DNA of 64,000 nt from assembly GCA_947632215.1 (NCBI GenBank), contig CANROJ010000005.1:16860-80859 (forward strand). Reading direction: 5' to 3'. The position numbers and the translations under genes were made by a program. Source of the stretch: an uncultured Flavobacterium sp. (lineage in GTDB: Bacteria; Bacteroidota; Bacteroidia; Flavobacteriales; Flavobacteriaceae). The notes below the pieces were generated by a model that was not told where the DNA came from, made no database searches, and saw nothing but the letters and a program-made list of their open reading frames with translations. Each line of letters starts with the position of its first letter. Within the stretch, counting starts at the first letter, position 1. Below are positions 7,717 through 14,485 of this stretch, piece after piece.

Positions 7717-8373
7717 TTACTCTTGAGATTCTTTTTCTAAGTGTCTTTGTTTTAATATCTGTTCTACCTGAGTTAAAGAATACCCTTTTACCTTAATTAG
7801 TAATAAATAGTGATAAAGTAAATCTGCAGCTTCATTTAAAAACAATTCCTTACTATCGCTCATTGCTTCTATAACCAGCTCTACAGCCTCCTCTCCTACT
7901 TTTTGAGCTACCTTAGCTATCCCTTTACTTTGCAAAGCATAGGTATAAGAACCGGGCTGTTTTTGCTCTAGTTTAAGAGCTATAATTTGTTCTAATTCTT
8001 GGGTAAAACCACTAGAGCGATCTAAATTATTTGGAGCGGAAGTAGAGTTATCTAAGCTTATTTCTTGGGTAAAACAGCTCTTAGTTCCCTTATGGCATAC
8101 TGCCTTTGGAGCCTTTACCAAAATTAGCAAAGTATCCCCATCACAGTCTAAACTCATTTGGACAATATCTAAAAAATTGCCTGAAGTTTCTCCCTTAGTC
8201 CATAAACTCTTCTTACTTCTACTATAAAAGGTAACTCTACCTTGAGCTACACTTTTCAGGTAGGCTTGCTGATTCATATAACCAAGCATTAAGACTTGTC
8301 TTGTGTCACTACACTGAATAATGGCTGGAATTAATCCATTTCCCTTATCAAAATCTATCTTGTCTAACATCAC
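7717..8373 (-). CDS. hisIE: bifunctional phosphoribosyl-AMP cyclohydrolase / phosphoribosyl-ATP pyrophosphatase
   Basis: GLIPAIIQCSDTRQVLMLGYMN, SRSKKSLWTKGETSGN; C-terminal KVGEEAVELVIEA…EAADLLYHYLLLI. Confidence 0.95.
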   Translation of the reverse strand: MMLDKIDFDKGNGLIPAIIQCSDTRQVLMLGYMNQQAYLKSVAQGRVTFYSRSKKSLWTKGETSGNFLDIVQMSLDCDGDTLLILVKAPKAVCHKGTKSCFTQEISLDNSTSAPNNLDRSSGFTQELEQIIALKLEQKQPGSYTYALQSKGIAKVAQKVGEEAVELVIEAMSDSKELFLNEAADLLYHYLLLIKVKGYSLTQVEQILKQRHLEKESQE

Positions 8374-8383
8374 TTTTAGGAAT

Positions 8384-9121
8384 TTATAAATTAGCTAAGG
8401 CTTGTTTAATCTCACAAATACTGACTCTATTGTAGTGAAATACACTAGCTCCCAGTGCTGCACTAGCACCAGTGCTAGCTAATACCTTAGTAAAATCATC
8501 CACACTTCCTGCTCCTCCTGAGGCAATAACTGGTATATCCACTCCTTGAGCTACCTCACGGGTAACATCAAGAGCAAATCCGCTACACACGCCATCATTA
8601 TTCATAGAGGTAAGAAGGATTTGACCTGCTCCTAAGTCTTGCACTTCTTTAGCCCACTGCACCGCGGTATAATCTGTCTTTTGAGTACCTCCTTTGCTAA
8701 ACACCCACCAGGTTTGGTCAATTTTCTTTACATCAATGGCTACAATAACTTTGTCGGAGCCCAGCTCTTGCACTAACTCTTTTAATAAATTAGGATTTTC
8801 TAAAACACTTGATGCAACTGAAATCTTACTTGCCCCACTTTCTAATAATTTCTTAGCCTGCTCCACGGTTTTAATTCCGCCTCCAACGCTAAAAGGAATA
8901 GAAATCTCTTTACCAACTTGTTTAATTAAATCAAAGAAAGGCTCTTTATTTTCTAAAGTAGCACTTATGTCTAAAAATACTAACTCATCTGCTCCTTGGC
9001 TTTGGTACGCTTTGGCCATAACAATAGGATCACCTAAGGTTTTAATATCCACAAAATTGATTCCTTTTACTACCTGATTATTTAAAATATCCATACAGGC
9101 AACTATTTTTTTTCCTACCAT
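8384..9121 (-). CDS. hisF: imidazole glycerol phosphate synthase, cyclase subunit
   Basis: ACMDILNNQVVKGINF, PFSVGGGIKT, VIASGGAGS. Confidence 0.95.
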   Translation of the reverse strand: MVGKKIVACMDILNNQVVKGINFVDIKTLGDPIVMAKAYQSQGADELVFLDISATLENKEPFFDLIKQVGKEISIPFSVGGGIKTVEQAKKLLESGASKISVASSVLENPNLLKELVQELGSDKVIVAIDVKKIDQTWWVFSKGGTQKTDYTAVQWAKEVQDLGAGQILLTSMNNDGVCSGFALDVTREVAQGVDIPVIASGGAGSVDDFTKVLASTGASAALGASVFHYNRVSICEIKQALANL

Positions 9122-9828
9122 AAGTTCTCTAATTCTTTTAATGAGATTTTATTTTCATATATAGCCTTACCAACTATTGCTCCATAGCATCCTATTTGCT
9201 TTAACTCTTGTAAATCTTCTAAGGAGCTAATACCACCAGATGCAATTAACTTTAATTTATTTTGTTTTAATATTTGTTTATACAAGCTCACACTAGGTCC
9301 TTGTAACATACCATCTTTATCAATATCAGTAACTATAGCATATTGTACTGATTTAAGGATATACTGATTCAAGTAAGAAAGTATCTCGGTGTCACTTTGA
9401 TCTAACCAACCTCTTGTTTTAATCATAGAATCTTTAGAGTCAGCACCCAATATCACCTTATCTGATCCATACTGATTTAGCCATTTTTCAAATAAATCAG
9501 GATCTTTATAAGCTATACTACCCACACTTATTTGGCTTGCCCCACAATCAAAAGCTCTTTGGACTTGGTCTGTGCTAGAGAGTCCACCCGAGAAATCAAC
9601 CCTTAGTGAAGTTGCGTTACAGATCTTTTCTAAAGACTTATAATTAACCACCTTTGCGGATTTTGCCCCATCTAGATCTACTAGGTGTAAATGAGTTAAT
9701 CCATGATCCTGAAAAGATTTAGCTAAGTCTACTACATTGCTAGAATATATTTTTTGTGTAGAATAATCACCCTTACTAAGTCGTACCGATTTTCCCTCTA
9801 TAATATCGATGGCTGGAATTATTATCAT
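9115..9828 (-). CDS. hisA: ProFAR isomerase
   Basis: MIIIPAIDIIEGKSVRLSKGDY, LHLVDLDGAK. Confidence 0.95.
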   Translation of the reverse strand: MIIIPAIDIIEGKSVRLSKGDYSTQKIYSSNVVDLAKSFQDHGLTHLHLVDLDGAKSAKVVNYKSLEKICNATSLRVDFSGGLSSTDQVQRAFDCGASQISVGSIAYKDPDLFEKWLNQYGSDKVILGADSKDSMIKTRGWLDQSDTEILSYLNQYILKSVQYAIVTDIDKDGMLQGPSVSLYKQILKQNKLKLIASGGISSLEDLQELKQIGCYGAIVGKAIYENKISLKELENLW

Positions 9829-9919
9829 TTGCTTATCGCTTTATTTATTTTTTTCTCTTACTACGGCCTTGAATAAAGAAACAGCAGTACTCTAAATTTC
9901 TTTGTCTTTCGCTCTTTAG

Positions 9920-11032
9920 TTACAATACTCCCTTACTACTAGGAATACTATAATTTTGGTTCTTTGAAGTGGCTAATCTTAGTGCTTTAGCAAAGCATTT
10001 AAAAATAGACTCTATCTTATGATGCTCATTATCTCCGGTTGCCTTTATGTTTAAATTACATCCTGCACCTTGACAAAAACTCTCAAAGAAATGAGAGAAC
10101 ATCTCACAAGGCATATCACCTACTTTTTCTCTTTTAAAATCTGCATCCCACACTAAAAATGGGCGATTACTAAAGTCAATAGCCACTGAGGTTAAAGCAT
10201 CATCCATTGGAAGAGAGAATCCATATCTTTCAATAGCTTTTTTACTACCTAAGGCTTCTTGAAAAGCTTGTCCTAAAGCTAGTGCGGTATCTTCTATAGT
10301 GTGGTGCTCATCTACCCATAGATCGCCTTTTACTTTAACTTGCAGCCCGATGTTTCCATGCTTTTGAATTTGAGCTAACATATGGTCAAAAAAGCCTAAA
10401 CCACTTTGTATATCACAACACTTGCTCCAATCCAGGTTTACCATCACCTCTATGTCTGTCTCCTTAGTTTTTCTTTGAACTCTAGCGGTTCTATACTGAC
10501 CTTTTAAAAAAGTATAGATTTCTTGCCATTCTTTAGTAAACAGAGCTACCTCTTGTTTGCCTTGTATATCAGTATTAGTAGTTGGATCAACAATAACAAT
10601 ACTTTTAGCTCCTAGGTTCTTTGCTAATTGCAGATCACTTAAACGGTCGCCTATAACAAAAGAGTTTTCTAAATCATACTGGCCATAAACATATTTGCTT
10701 AACATCCCTATACCTGGTTTTCTATTGATAGAGTTCTCACTAGGTAAAGAAGGATCAATAAAAATATCTGCAAAACTTACTCCCTGACTCTCTAAGAGTT
10801 GGATCATTGCATTTTGTACTGGCCAGAAATCCTCCAGGGCAAAACTATCGGTTCCCAATCCATCTTGATTACTTACCAAAACAAGCACATAGTCGGTTTC
10901 TTTAGCAATTCTACTCAGACAAACCACTACATCTTTTACATATCGCATCTTTTGAAAACTATCGATTTGAAAATCTTCTGGCTCCTGTAATATGGTTCCA
11001 TCTCTATCTATAAATAATACTTTCTTTTTCAT
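9920..11032 (-). CDS. hisB: bifunctional histidinol-phosphatase / imidazoleglycerol-phosphate dehydratase
   Basis: HAD N-terminus FIDRDGTIL; IGPD domain GLGFFDHMLAQIQKHG, DEHHTIEDTALALG. Confidence 0.96.
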   Translation of the reverse strand: MKKKVLFIDRDGTILQEPEDFQIDSFQKMRYVKDVVVCLSRIAKETDYVLVLVSNQDGLGTDSFALEDFWPVQNAMIQLLESQGVSFADIFIDPSLPSENSINRKPGIGMLSKYVYGQYDLENSFVIGDRLSDLQLAKNLGAKSIVIVDPTTNTDIQGKQEVALFTKEWQEIYTFLKGQYRTARVQRKTKETDIEVMVNLDWSKCCDIQSGLGFFDHMLAQIQKHGNIGLQVKVKGDLWVDEHHTIEDTALALGQAFQEALGSKKAIERYGFSLPMDDALTSVAIDFSNRPFLVWDADFKREKVGDMPCEMFSHFFESFCQGAGCNLNIKATGDNEHHKIESIFKCFAKALRLATSKNQNYSIPSSKGVL

Positions 11033-11033
11033 T

Positions 11034-12080
11034 TTAAAGGTTTTTTAAACACTGAATTACTAACTTATTCTCTAAAGGGGTTCCCACTGATATACGCAAA
11101 GCCCCTGGCTTGACCCCTTGCCTATCTCTTACCAAAATACCCTTGTCAAGTAAGGCATTGTAAACTTTTGTGGCATCAAGAAAGACTACCAATAAAAAGT
11201 TAGCATCCGAGGGGTAAACCTTCTTCACTAAAGGTAGTAAGGCTAATTCTTGACTCAGAAACTCTCTTTGGTCTATAATCCACTGGGTAGTTTGCTTGAC
11301 AAAGTTGCTGTTTTGTAAAACCTCTATAGCTTTTTCTTGATTGACTTGACTAATATTATAGGGAGATTTAACTTTGTTGAAAATCTCTACTAACTCCTGG
11401 TCCATAAAAGCCATTCCAATGCGAAGAGCTGCCCCGGCCCAAGCCTTAGATAAAGTCTGCAGTACAATTACATTATTACAACAAAGAAAACTATCTTGCA
11501 GAAAAGGTTTCTGTGCAAAATCAATATAAGCCTGATCTAAAATAACGATACCTTGAAACTCTTGAATAAGCTTCTGGATCAAGTCCGTATCTAAAAGATT
11601 TCCAGTGGGGTTATTTACCTGACAGATAAACAACAACTTTGCATCTTGCACCTGTAATACCTCTTGAACTACTCTATCAGACAAACTAAAATCCTGTTCT
11701 AGGTTTACCTCAACAATAGGGGTTTGATGAATATCTCCATAAACCTTATACATACCGTAGCTAGGTCGCAGGACAACAGCCTTGTCTACTAAAGGTTGAC
11801 AGAAGATGCGAAACGCTAAATCAATTACCTCATCACTACCATTGGAAAGAAATATATTTTGTTGTGGAATTTGCTTTACCTTAGATAAAATCTGTTTTAC
11901 TTTACTTTGGTATGGATCACAATACCTATTATATTCTCCAAATGGATTCTCATTGGCATCTAACAAGACAACTTGCTTCTCTAGGTAATCCAACTTCTCT
12001 GACCTAGCACTACTATAAGGCTGTAAATTCCAAATATTTGGTCTAACAACACTTTGGAATTCTATATTTTTACTTTTCAT
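11034..12080 (-). CDS. hisC: histidinol-phosphate aminotransferase
   Basis: LLDANENPFGEYNRYCDP, QTLSKAWAGAALRIG. Confidence 0.95.
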   Translation of the reverse strand: MKSKNIEFQSVVRPNIWNLQPYSSARSEKLDYLEKQVVLLDANENPFGEYNRYCDPYQSKVKQILSKVKQIPQQNIFLSNGSDEVIDLAFRIFCQPLVDKAVVLRPSYGMYKVYGDIHQTPIVEVNLEQDFSLSDRVVQEVLQVQDAKLLFICQVNNPTGNLLDTDLIQKLIQEFQGIVILDQAYIDFAQKPFLQDSFLCCNNVIVLQTLSKAWAGAALRIGMAFMDQELVEIFNKVKSPYNISQVNQEKAIEVLQNSNFVKQTTQWIIDQREFLSQELALLPLVKKVYPSDANFLLVVFLDATKVYNALLDKGILVRDRQGVKPGALRISVGTPLENKLVIQCLKNL

Positions 12081-13362
12081 CTTGAATCTTTTTTAATCGG
12101 ATACTCACTGCCATTTTGTGTGCAAGTAATCCTTCGCTTTGTGCTAATACTTCAATGGTTGGTCCTAAATTTTCAATGCCTTGTTGGCTGATGCTCTGAA
12201 AGGTAATTTGCTTGGAAAAGCTATCCACGCTAAGTCCGCTATATCCCCTAGCATACCCACTAGTTGGTAAGGTATGATTGGTACCTGAGGCATAATCACC
12301 TGCACTCTCACAGGCATATTTACCTAAGAAAACCGAACCTGCGTTTTGTATTTGACCCACATAATCACAGGCATTTTCAAAACTAAGTATAAGGTGCTCC
12401 GGGGCATACACATTACTGAATTCGATACACTGAGCCAGTGTAGAGAAATACACACAAAAACTATTCTCTAAAGCCTCTTTGGCTATTGCAGCTCTAGGCA
12501 AATCTTCACATTGTGTTTCGATGGCCTGTTTTACTTGAGCGATTTTCTCTAAAGAAGTACTCAAAAGAACAACCTGAGAATCCACACCATGCTCACATTG
12601 ACTTAGTAAATCACTAGCTATAAAATCCGCATCGCTATCCTTAGTGGCTATAACTAAGACTTCACTAGGTCCAGCTGGCATATCAATAGCTACCCCATCT
12701 GATTGTACTAACTCCTTTGCCTTGGTTACCCACTGATTCCCTGGACCGAATATCTTATCGACCCGTTCTATACTTTGAGTTCCATAGGCTAAGGCGGCTA
12801 TTGCTTGAGCTCCTCCCACTTTGTAAATCTTATCGATTCCCAACAAACTAGCTACATATAAAACCTCGGGTGAAACACTTTGATCCTTTTGACAAGGGGT
12901 ACATACCGATATAGAAGAACAACCAGCGAGTTTAGCAGGAATCCCCAACATAAGTAATGTACTAAATAAAGCGGCGCTACCTCCAGGAATATACAATCCA
13001 ACTTTACCAATACCCACTTGCTTTCTAAAACACTTCACTCCAGGGGTCGTTTCAATAACGGGTTGTTGGATTAATTGAGCTTTGTGAAAAATGTAAATAT
13101 TATCATATGCAACATCTATGGCATCTTTAAAGGCTTGACTAACTTTCTCTTTCGCTTGAGCAATCTGCTGATCACTTACCTGTATTTGATCTAACTCGAC
13201 TTTATCAATCTGCTTGGTAAGACTAAAAAGAGCTTGGTCTTTCTGGGTTTTTACCATCTCTAAGATAGCCTGTACCTTTGGAGTTATTACACAGGTATCT
13301 TGTAGTGGTCTTTGACAAATCTTTGCCCAAGTATCTTTGGATGGATTATTATATTCTTGCAT
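12070..13362 (-). CDS. hisD: histidinol dehydrogenase
   Basis: GLYIPGGSAALFSTLLMLGIPAKLAG, GPSEVLVIA, NHTLPTSGYARGYSGLSVDSF. Confidence 0.96.
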   Translation of the reverse strand: MQEYNNPSKDTWAKICQRPLQDTCVITPKVQAILEMVKTQKDQALFSLTKQIDKVELDQIQVSDQQIAQAKEKVSQAFKDAIDVAYDNIYIFHKAQLIQQPVIETTPGVKCFRKQVGIGKVGLYIPGGSAALFSTLLMLGIPAKLAGCSSISVCTPCQKDQSVSPEVLYVASLLGIDKIYKVGGAQAIAALAYGTQSIERVDKIFGPGNQWVTKAKELVQSDGVAIDMPAGPSEVLVIATKDSDADFIASDLLSQCEHGVDSQVVLLSTSLEKIAQVKQAIETQCEDLPRAAIAKEALENSFCVYFSTLAQCIEFSNVYAPEHLILSFENACDYVGQIQNAGSVFLGKYACESAGDYASGTNHTLPTSGYARGYSGLSVDSFSKQITFQSISQQGIENLGPTIEVLAQSEGLLAHKMAVSIRLKKIQDEK

Positions 13363-13376
13363 AGCTATTGTAATTA

Positions 13377-14234
13377 TTAAAGGATCATCTTTTCAATTGG
13401 AACAACCAAAATACCTTGGGCTCCGGCTTGTTTTAACTTTTGAATGTTTTCCCAAAAATCATCTTCTTTGATAACAGAATGTACAGAAGACCAGCCACTG
13501 GTAGCCAGAGGAAGAACACTTGGACTCTTTACCCCTGGAAGTATAGAGATAATCTGCTGAATTTTATCATTAGGAGCATTCAGCAAGATGTATTTGTTTT
13601 CTTTGGAAAGTAAAAGAGCCTGAATTCTGGCCTGTAGTCTTTCTAAAAGACTTTGTTTATCTTTACTCAGCTCTGGGTTTTGGATTAAAACAGCTTGGCT
13701 TTGCAAGATCACCTCTACTTCTTTTAAACCGTTACTCATCAAGGTAGAGCCGCTACTAACGATATCACATACTCCTTGAGCCAGTCCAATACTAGGAGCA
13801 ATCTCCACGCTTCCTGAAATAGTTTCAATACCCGCGTTGATATTATTGTCTTGTAAAAACTTTTGAAGAATCTTAGGATAAGATGTAGCTATTTTTTTGT
13901 CTTGGAAGTATTCTAGCCCAGGGTAGTTGACTTCTTTAGGCACAGCCAAGGAAAGTCTACAGAATGAAAAACCTAATTTTTCAGTAACTAAAAGTGGAAG
14001 ATCCTCCTCTAAGAAAACGTTTTGACCAATAATTCCAATATCGGCTACACCACTTTGTACGTATCTTGGAATATCATCATCTCTTAGAAATAAAACCTCT
14101 ATAGGAAAGTTGGTACTTTGAGCTTTTAATTTACCCGCACCATAAGGTATTTTTATACCACATTGTTTTAAAAGTTCTAAAGACTTTTCGCTTAAACGTC
14201 CACCCTTTTGAATGGCTAAAATTAATTTTGACAT
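13377..14234 (-). CDS. hisG: ATP phosphoribosyltransferase
   Basis: MSKLILAIQKGGRLSEKSLELLKQCGI, VADIGIIGQNV; start moved from 14294 to MSKL at 14234. Confidence 0.95.
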   Translation of the reverse strand: MSKLILAIQKGGRLSEKSLELLKQCGIKIPYGAGKLKAQSTNFPIEVLFLRDDDIPRYVQSGVADIGIIGQNVFLEEDLPLLVTEKLGFSFCRLSLAVPKEVNYPGLEYFQDKKIATSYPKILQKFLQDNNINAGIETISGSVEIAPSIGLAQGVCDIVSSGSTLMSNGLKEVEVILQSQAVLIQNPELSKDKQSLLERLQARIQALLLSKENKYILLNAPNDKIQQIISILPGVKSPSVLPLATSGWSSVHSVIKEDDFWENIQKLKQAGAQGILVVPIEKMIL

Positions 14235-14301
14235 CGTTTGTATTTTTTTACTCCCAAAACGAGTCGACAAACGGTTCAAAACAATGCAATACAAAAAGCG
14301 T

Positions 14302-14338
14302 AAAACAAAAAAATCCCGTTTGATGACTCAAACGGGAT
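14302..14338 (-). terminator. attenuator terminator of the his leader
   Basis: Minus strand ATCCCGTTTGA gtca TCAAACGGGAT TTTTTTGTTTT between leader peptide and hisG. Confidence 0.85.
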
Positions 14339-14386
14339 AATTAGTTATTTTATTAGTTTACATAAATCACAACATTATCGGCTCGC

Positions 14387-14434
14387 TTAAGTGCAAGTAA
14401 AATGATGATGATGATGGAATTTATTTGTAAACAT
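14387..14434 (-). promoter_or_regulatory. hisL: histidine leader peptide MFTNKFHHHHHFTCT* (attenuator)
   Basis: ATG TTT ACA AAT AAA TTC CAT CAT CAT CAT CAT TTT ACT TGC ACT TAA; five consecutive His codons upstream of terminator and hisG. Confidence 0.88.
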
Positions 14435-14456
14435 TATTTGTCTTATTTGTATGGAG

Positions 14457-14485
14457 CAAATGTAGAAGTTTTTTTGTCTTACAAA
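14457..14485 (-). promoter_or_regulatory. putative his operon promoter
   Basis: Minus strand TTTG-N17-TACATTTG, matching the Bacteroidota -33/-7 pattern, ~23 nt before the leader ATG. Confidence 0.65.

Follow-up and report, generated by a model that had tools for sequence, protein, structure and literature searches.

The his operon of the uncultured Flavobacterium sp. studied here is very probably controlled by ribosome-mediated transcription attenuation in response to charged tRNA-His, as judged from sequence, conservation and predicted folds. The analysed stretch of 64,000 nucleotides (contig CANROJ010000005.1, called the window for simplicity) carries on its minus strand a promoter, a leader with five His codons, an antiterminator strand at the end of that leader, a terminator that excludes the antiterminator, and the hisG operon. 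Attenuation by a translating ribosome had been proposed in a first-pass annotation of the same DNA and is the best-supported reading, given the conservation of the His run, the hairpin and the promoter box. The actual antiterminator, ACUUAAGCG pairing with CGUUUGAGU, had been missed there and is supported by covariation. The features are as follows.

14457 to 14485, minus strand: promoter TTTG-N17-TACATTTG of the Bacteroidota sigma-A type (-33/-7), from the sequence
14387 to 14434, minus strand: leader peptide ORF MFTNKFHHHHHFTCT with its stop codon and five CAT codons at 14416-14402, from the sequence and homologues
14420 to 14432, minus strand: segment 1, GUUUACAAAUAAA, the leader start, paired with segment 2 in the minimum-energy fold
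14384 to 14392, minus strand: antiterminator 5' strand ACUUAAGCG, running from the last leader codon through the stop codon into the three bases after it
14371 to 14379, minus strand: antiterminator extension GAUAAUGUU, pairing with AACUAAUUAUC at 14346-14336 in the predicted fold of the window only
14356 to 14366, minus strand: segment 2, UUUAUGUAAAC, partner of segment 1 in the minimum-energy fold
14326 to 14334, minus strand: T5, CGUUUGAGU, the terminator 5' arm and loop start, common partner of antiterminator and terminator
14307 to 14338, minus strand: intrinsic terminator with an 11-bp stem, GUCA loop and U-tract, from a terminator scan, its z of -4.7 and covariation
14260 to 14265, minus strand: GACUCG, possible degenerate remnant of element D, from comparison with relatives
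14235 to 14273, minus strand: predicted hairpin CGUUUGU (14273-14267)/ACAAACG (14241-14235), directly before the hisG start codon
13377 to 14234, minus strand: hisG (ATP phosphoribosyltransferase), first gene of the operon (NCBIfam TIGR00070, 7.9e-53)
7717 to 13362, minus strand: hisD, hisC, hisB, hisA, hisF and hisIE, without hisH (NCBIfam)

Read directly on the minus strand, TTTG (14485-14482) and TACATTTG (14464-14457) are separated by a 17-nt spacer, and the promoter described in the first-pass annotation is thus present. Of 98 homologous leaders, 90 have a TAnnTTTG box in the 75 nt before the leader ATG, where shuffles would give 7.7, and the median box-to-ATG distance is 22 nt. The -33 part is more variable, with TTG at 16-22 nt in 28 of the 98. 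The leader itself reads ATG TTT ACA AAT AAA TTC CAT CAT CAT CAT CAT TTT ACT TGC ACT TAA (14434-14387). Its predicted product has 15 residues including five His, all encoded by CAT, and MFTNKFHHHHHFTCT is therefore a short ORF rich in codons for the amino acid that the operon makes. The HHHHH leader peptide before hisG was correctly annotated, as was the observation that the ORF is too short to appear in the ORF track. Five consecutive CAY codons occur once in the window and in 0 of 100 shuffles. Among the sites with four CAY codons that were inspected in the genome (all except two on contig C96), only the one before hisG lies in a short leader that begins with ATG and has a biosynthetic gene behind it; the others bear no resemblance to leaders of biosynthetic operons.

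The gene downstream of promoter, leader and terminator is indeed hisG, with its ATG at 14234, and the operon runs hisGDCB-A-F-IE with a bifunctional hisB. A start at TTG 14294, as in the longest listed ORF, was rejected as a mechanical extension because homologues align from the ATG at 14234 (MSKLILAIQKGG). This TTG lies inside the post-terminator leader, and automatic annotation could thus overextend hisG. The stretch between the two start codons covers 14235-14294. No other species found has a HisG more than 71% identical to that of the window, with Myroides coming closest, and the genome falls within a broad Flavobacteriaceae genus that also contains Myroides-like species. hisH is missing between hisB and hisA (9780-9960), and a search of the 99%-complete genome gave no HisH match above the family cut-off. 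The only two matches were weak, C-terminal and probably to other glutamine amidotransferases; HisF in this species may depend on free ammonia.

Conservation of the His run and the hairpin in close relatives, the lack of which had been named as a refutation in the first-pass annotation, was examined in 173 collected hisG loci and did not refute the proposal. Both are kept in 98 distinct loci of flavobacterial type, where a His-run leader (13-23 aa, mostly 4-6 His) is followed by a CCCGTYTGAG-loop-TCARACGGG terminator or a close variant. The window element shares with them the position before hisG, the poly-His leader and the CCCGTYTGAG...TCARACGGG terminator. As leader, terminator and promoter box precede hisG throughout Flavobacteriales, a chance origin is ruled out.

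The 11-bp GC-containing stem with poly-T reported by the first-pass annotation was recovered independently by a terminator scan. The hairpin ATCCCGTTTGA-GTCA-TCAAACGGGAT (14338-14313) has 11 pairs, 5 of them G-C, followed by six T, and constitutes an intrinsic terminator between the leader and the first structural gene. The fold of the RNA 14374-14306 has a z of -4.7, and none of 200 shuffles was equally good. The competing antiterminator is formed by ACUUAAGCG (14392-14384) and its partner CGUUUGAGU (14334-14326), a stretch made up of terminator 5' arm and the first part of the loop; in the predicted fold of the window sequence it is strengthened by the extension GAUAAUGUU/AACUAAUUAUC. The RNA 14404-14324 folds at -15.5 kcal/mol (z -2.4). 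Covariation was counted in an alignment of 37 leaders, and against shuffles such counts can be inflated by related sequences: the terminator is 95.2% paired with both-side changes in 19 cells (6.7 shuffled), and the antiterminator 91.2% paired with both-side changes in 13 cells (3.6 shuffled, 0/500). When the strands were slid, pairing fell to 20-49% for both helices. With a ribosome placed in silico at His1 to His5, the RNA preceding the second terminator arm adopts the antiterminator fold (-15.5 to -13.5 kcal/mol). Moving the ribosome to the stop codon leaves only -3.1 kcal/mol, and the terminator forms. Folds and covariation thus point computationally to two mutually exclusive structures between which the ribosome position decides. 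When all RNA is free the terminator is thermodynamically favored over the antiterminator, so the switch depends on timing. To our knowledge, this is common to all such attenuators. In leaders of the Myroides odoratimimus type the antiterminator is partly broken, with only ACTC:GAGT paired before a mismatch, and the exact pairing therefore varies.

Most Flavobacteriales relatives carry a further segment, called D, between the terminator and hisG, about 25-45 nt before the hisG start. Examples are UGUACUCAAAC and GAUUUACUCAAAC, which are complementary to the terminator 5' arm and loop (GUUUGAGUACA and GUUUGAGUAAAUC). D tracks changes in the loop, with GUCUGAGUAUAUC accompanying GAUAUACUCAGAU, GAGACAAU accompanying AUUGUUUC and GAGUGUACU accompanying AGUACAUUC, and it is present in about 90 of the 98 leaders, i.e. 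common and not universal. A T5:D helix in relatives is strongly supported by sequence comparison: 96.4% of positions are paired, and 6 of 11 pairs are changed on both sides (2.2 shuffled, 0/500, a count subject to the same inflation by relatedness), which exceeds the covariation of the terminator itself. A count on 92 sequences agrees, and slid controls, in which relatedness is retained, are far below the helix (17-43% paired).

The hisG start region in relatives (AUGAGUAAA, AUGAGUACA) is similar to the terminator loop; the terminator 5' arm and loop imitate the start as GAGUAAA/GAGUACA, so that D can also pair with the hisG start. Fold stability supports this second pairing, with a mean z of -1.58 for the post-terminator folds (0.01 for window ORF starts); independent covariation supports it weakly and only in part, with 11 both-side-changed cells (3.8 shuffled). 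Since D is transcribed only once the termination decision has been taken, it would have to act later, on translation or stability of the read-through mRNA. A double switch, in which D pairs alternately with T5 plus loop or with the hisG start and thereby keeps leaky histidine-replete transcripts untranslated, is possible, and we place it on the doubtful side of even. Equilibrium folding does not clearly support this fail-safe idea: with the second terminator arm masked, T5 is predicted to prefer the antiterminator (0.65 versus 0.18), and pairing of the start is unchanged at 0.67. An opening of the hisG start by T5:D at equilibrium was therefore discarded as unsupported by folding. In the window species (hisG start AUGUCAAAA) no T5:D helix rises above chance (p 0.435 for the best), and D has possibly decayed to GACUCG. 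The predicted CGUUUGU/ACAAACG hairpin is uncertain, being no better than shuffles (z 0.1). D as a general element of pheA and trpE leaders was also considered and rejected, as complementarity there is low and chance-like by inspection. The pairing of D was not found described in the literature searched, in the case of PMC9723704 its main text, and D pairing near the hisG start is apparently new. With its covariation in relatives, the post-terminator D allows a definite, testable proposal that an amino-acid attenuator has a second layer of control.

An alternative fold between the leader start and a downstream segment, GTTTACAaaTAAA/TTTATGTAAAC (14432-14420/14366-14356), had been put forward in the first-pass annotation. 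The complementarity is real, interrupted in the window species only by a 2-nt bulge, and the pairing is part of the minimum-energy fold; its role as the antiterminator did not hold. Segments 1 and 2 do not overlap the terminator and cannot exclude it, and indeed both structures are present in a single minimum-energy fold. Nor did a swap test reveal covariation (47 better, 40 worse than swapped partners). On geometry and missing covariation we rejected segment 1:2 as the antiterminator, and give next to no credence to the leader start and UUUAUGUAAAC playing this part themselves; at most they form a pause hairpin or a helper hairpin acting as anti-antiterminator.

Fixed-rate read-through of the terminator behind a constitutive leader, with the His run as a leftover in a species that has lost histidine sensing, would fit a genome that is small (2.3 Mb) and without hisH or a clear element D. 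We consider it improbable: promoter, His run, antiterminator and terminator are intact despite divergence elsewhere in the leader, and two examined 600-kb genomes (L165, L173) are without a detected leader, so leaders can be lost. Control might instead be mainly translational, in that the leader would govern access to the hisG start, by way of segment D or the CGUUUGU/ACAAACG hairpin, and not termination. The D:start hairpin of relatives, with its post-terminator mean z (-1.58 versus 0.01) and doubly changed cells (11 versus 3.8), speaks for this, but the intrinsic terminator is near-perfect and conserved, the start hairpin of the window species does no better than shuffles, and masking the second terminator arm does not free the hisG start in equilibrium folds. 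Mainly translational control is thus very improbable.

Under transcription attenuation, RNA polymerase would start about 20 nt before the leader ATG with a ribosome following it. With enough His-tRNA the ribosome would reach the UAA ending at 14387 and cover ACUUAAGCG, the arm CCCGUUUGA would pair with UCAAACGGG, and transcription would end in the U-tract. When His-tRNA is scarce, the ribosome would stall in the CAU run and leave ACUUAAGCG free to pair with CGUUUGAGU while the second terminator arm has yet to be transcribed, and the polymerase would continue into hisGDCB-A-F-IE. Without translation of the leader, the antiterminator strand may be held by the segment 1:2 hairpin and termination favored.

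Attenuation is also supported by analogues. Poly-His leaders with unrelated terminators precede hisG in other Bacteroidota (L057, L071, L075-L079, L082; e.g. AAGGCTTACC/GGTAAGCCTT), including Cytophagales such as L057 with its AAGGCTTACC terminator, and in the genus of the window species trpE is preceded by Trp-rich leaders and pheA by Phe-rich ones. Among the 173 loci, a leader was not found in the two 600-kb single-contig genomes, which by their size alone are probably those of insect symbionts, and was undetected by the scan in a few further loci.

Several side observations concern related leaders. In Roseivirga and relatives (L038-L059), His-rich short ORFs ending in HHFHHLS lie before hisG; no terminator was detected at these loci, and they are possibly a translational or Rho-dependent version. 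A Calditrichaeota MAG (L080:1-2001) has a poly-His leader, MIILNPRHHHHIRKHFRLAL, and a CCCGGTTCA/TGAGCCGGG terminator before hisG, so that either the device extends beyond Bacteroidota or the bin is mixed. Within the genus (L192-L251), leaders rich in Phe recur before pheA (e.g. MSNNRFYFSNTFYFFFRK) and leaders rich in Trp before trpE (MKTILNNTWWWNNLRQSS); their terminators include AATCCCGATGCAAATCGGGATT and AAAAGGCTTGTCATCACGACAAGCCTTTT. Upstream of trpE, both the window genome (L248) and a Myroides-like relative (L250) have two serial modules of Trp-rich leader and terminator, MKKQNLHINWWSRLNPNW... and MQLFITTLLSWWWRLNS..., which are probable tandem trp attenuators.

Ribosome-mediated attenuation of histidine synthesis is best known in enteric bacteria. 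In the hisL attenuator of E. coli and Salmonella, a leader with a run of His codons precedes hisG of the his biosynthesis operon, and terminator and antiterminator are mutually exclusive. The window element resembles this leader (Rfam His_leader) in the His run, in hisG, in the exclusive terminator and antiterminator and in the his operon. Unlike the enterobacterial leader, it has a Bacteroidota promoter and is a compact two-state switch: its antiterminator strand occupies the end of the leader ORF itself and has the terminator 5' arm as its direct partner. Rfam gave no match in the window or in six of the collected loci (L001, L014, L022, L036, L057, L071), and thus none to the His leader family above its gathering score. 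Among Firmicutes, the his attenuators of the Bacillus cereus group, Eubacteriales and Erysipelotrichales have three to five consecutive His codons (PMC9413887); the window element is like them in its short His leader, terminator and antiterminator, a likeness by description. For Bacteroidota, the literature searched on his attenuators yielded only PMC9723704 and brief remarks in B. thetaiotaomicron work. According to the former, a transcriptome study of Flavobacterium psychrophilum from 2021, hisG is among the structured 5' elements without an Rfam match, the element is conserved in other Flavobacteriaceae genera, and amino-acid operons show strong signs of attenuation by leader peptides; its main text gives no architecture (PMC9723704). 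The window element agrees with it in gene, bacterial family and lack of an Rfam match, and by this report belongs to an already known type (PMC9723704). The window element indicates that leader-peptide attenuation of histidine synthesis is general among Bacteroidota, and that its form here is a compact one, with an antiterminator that the ribosome would mask directly.
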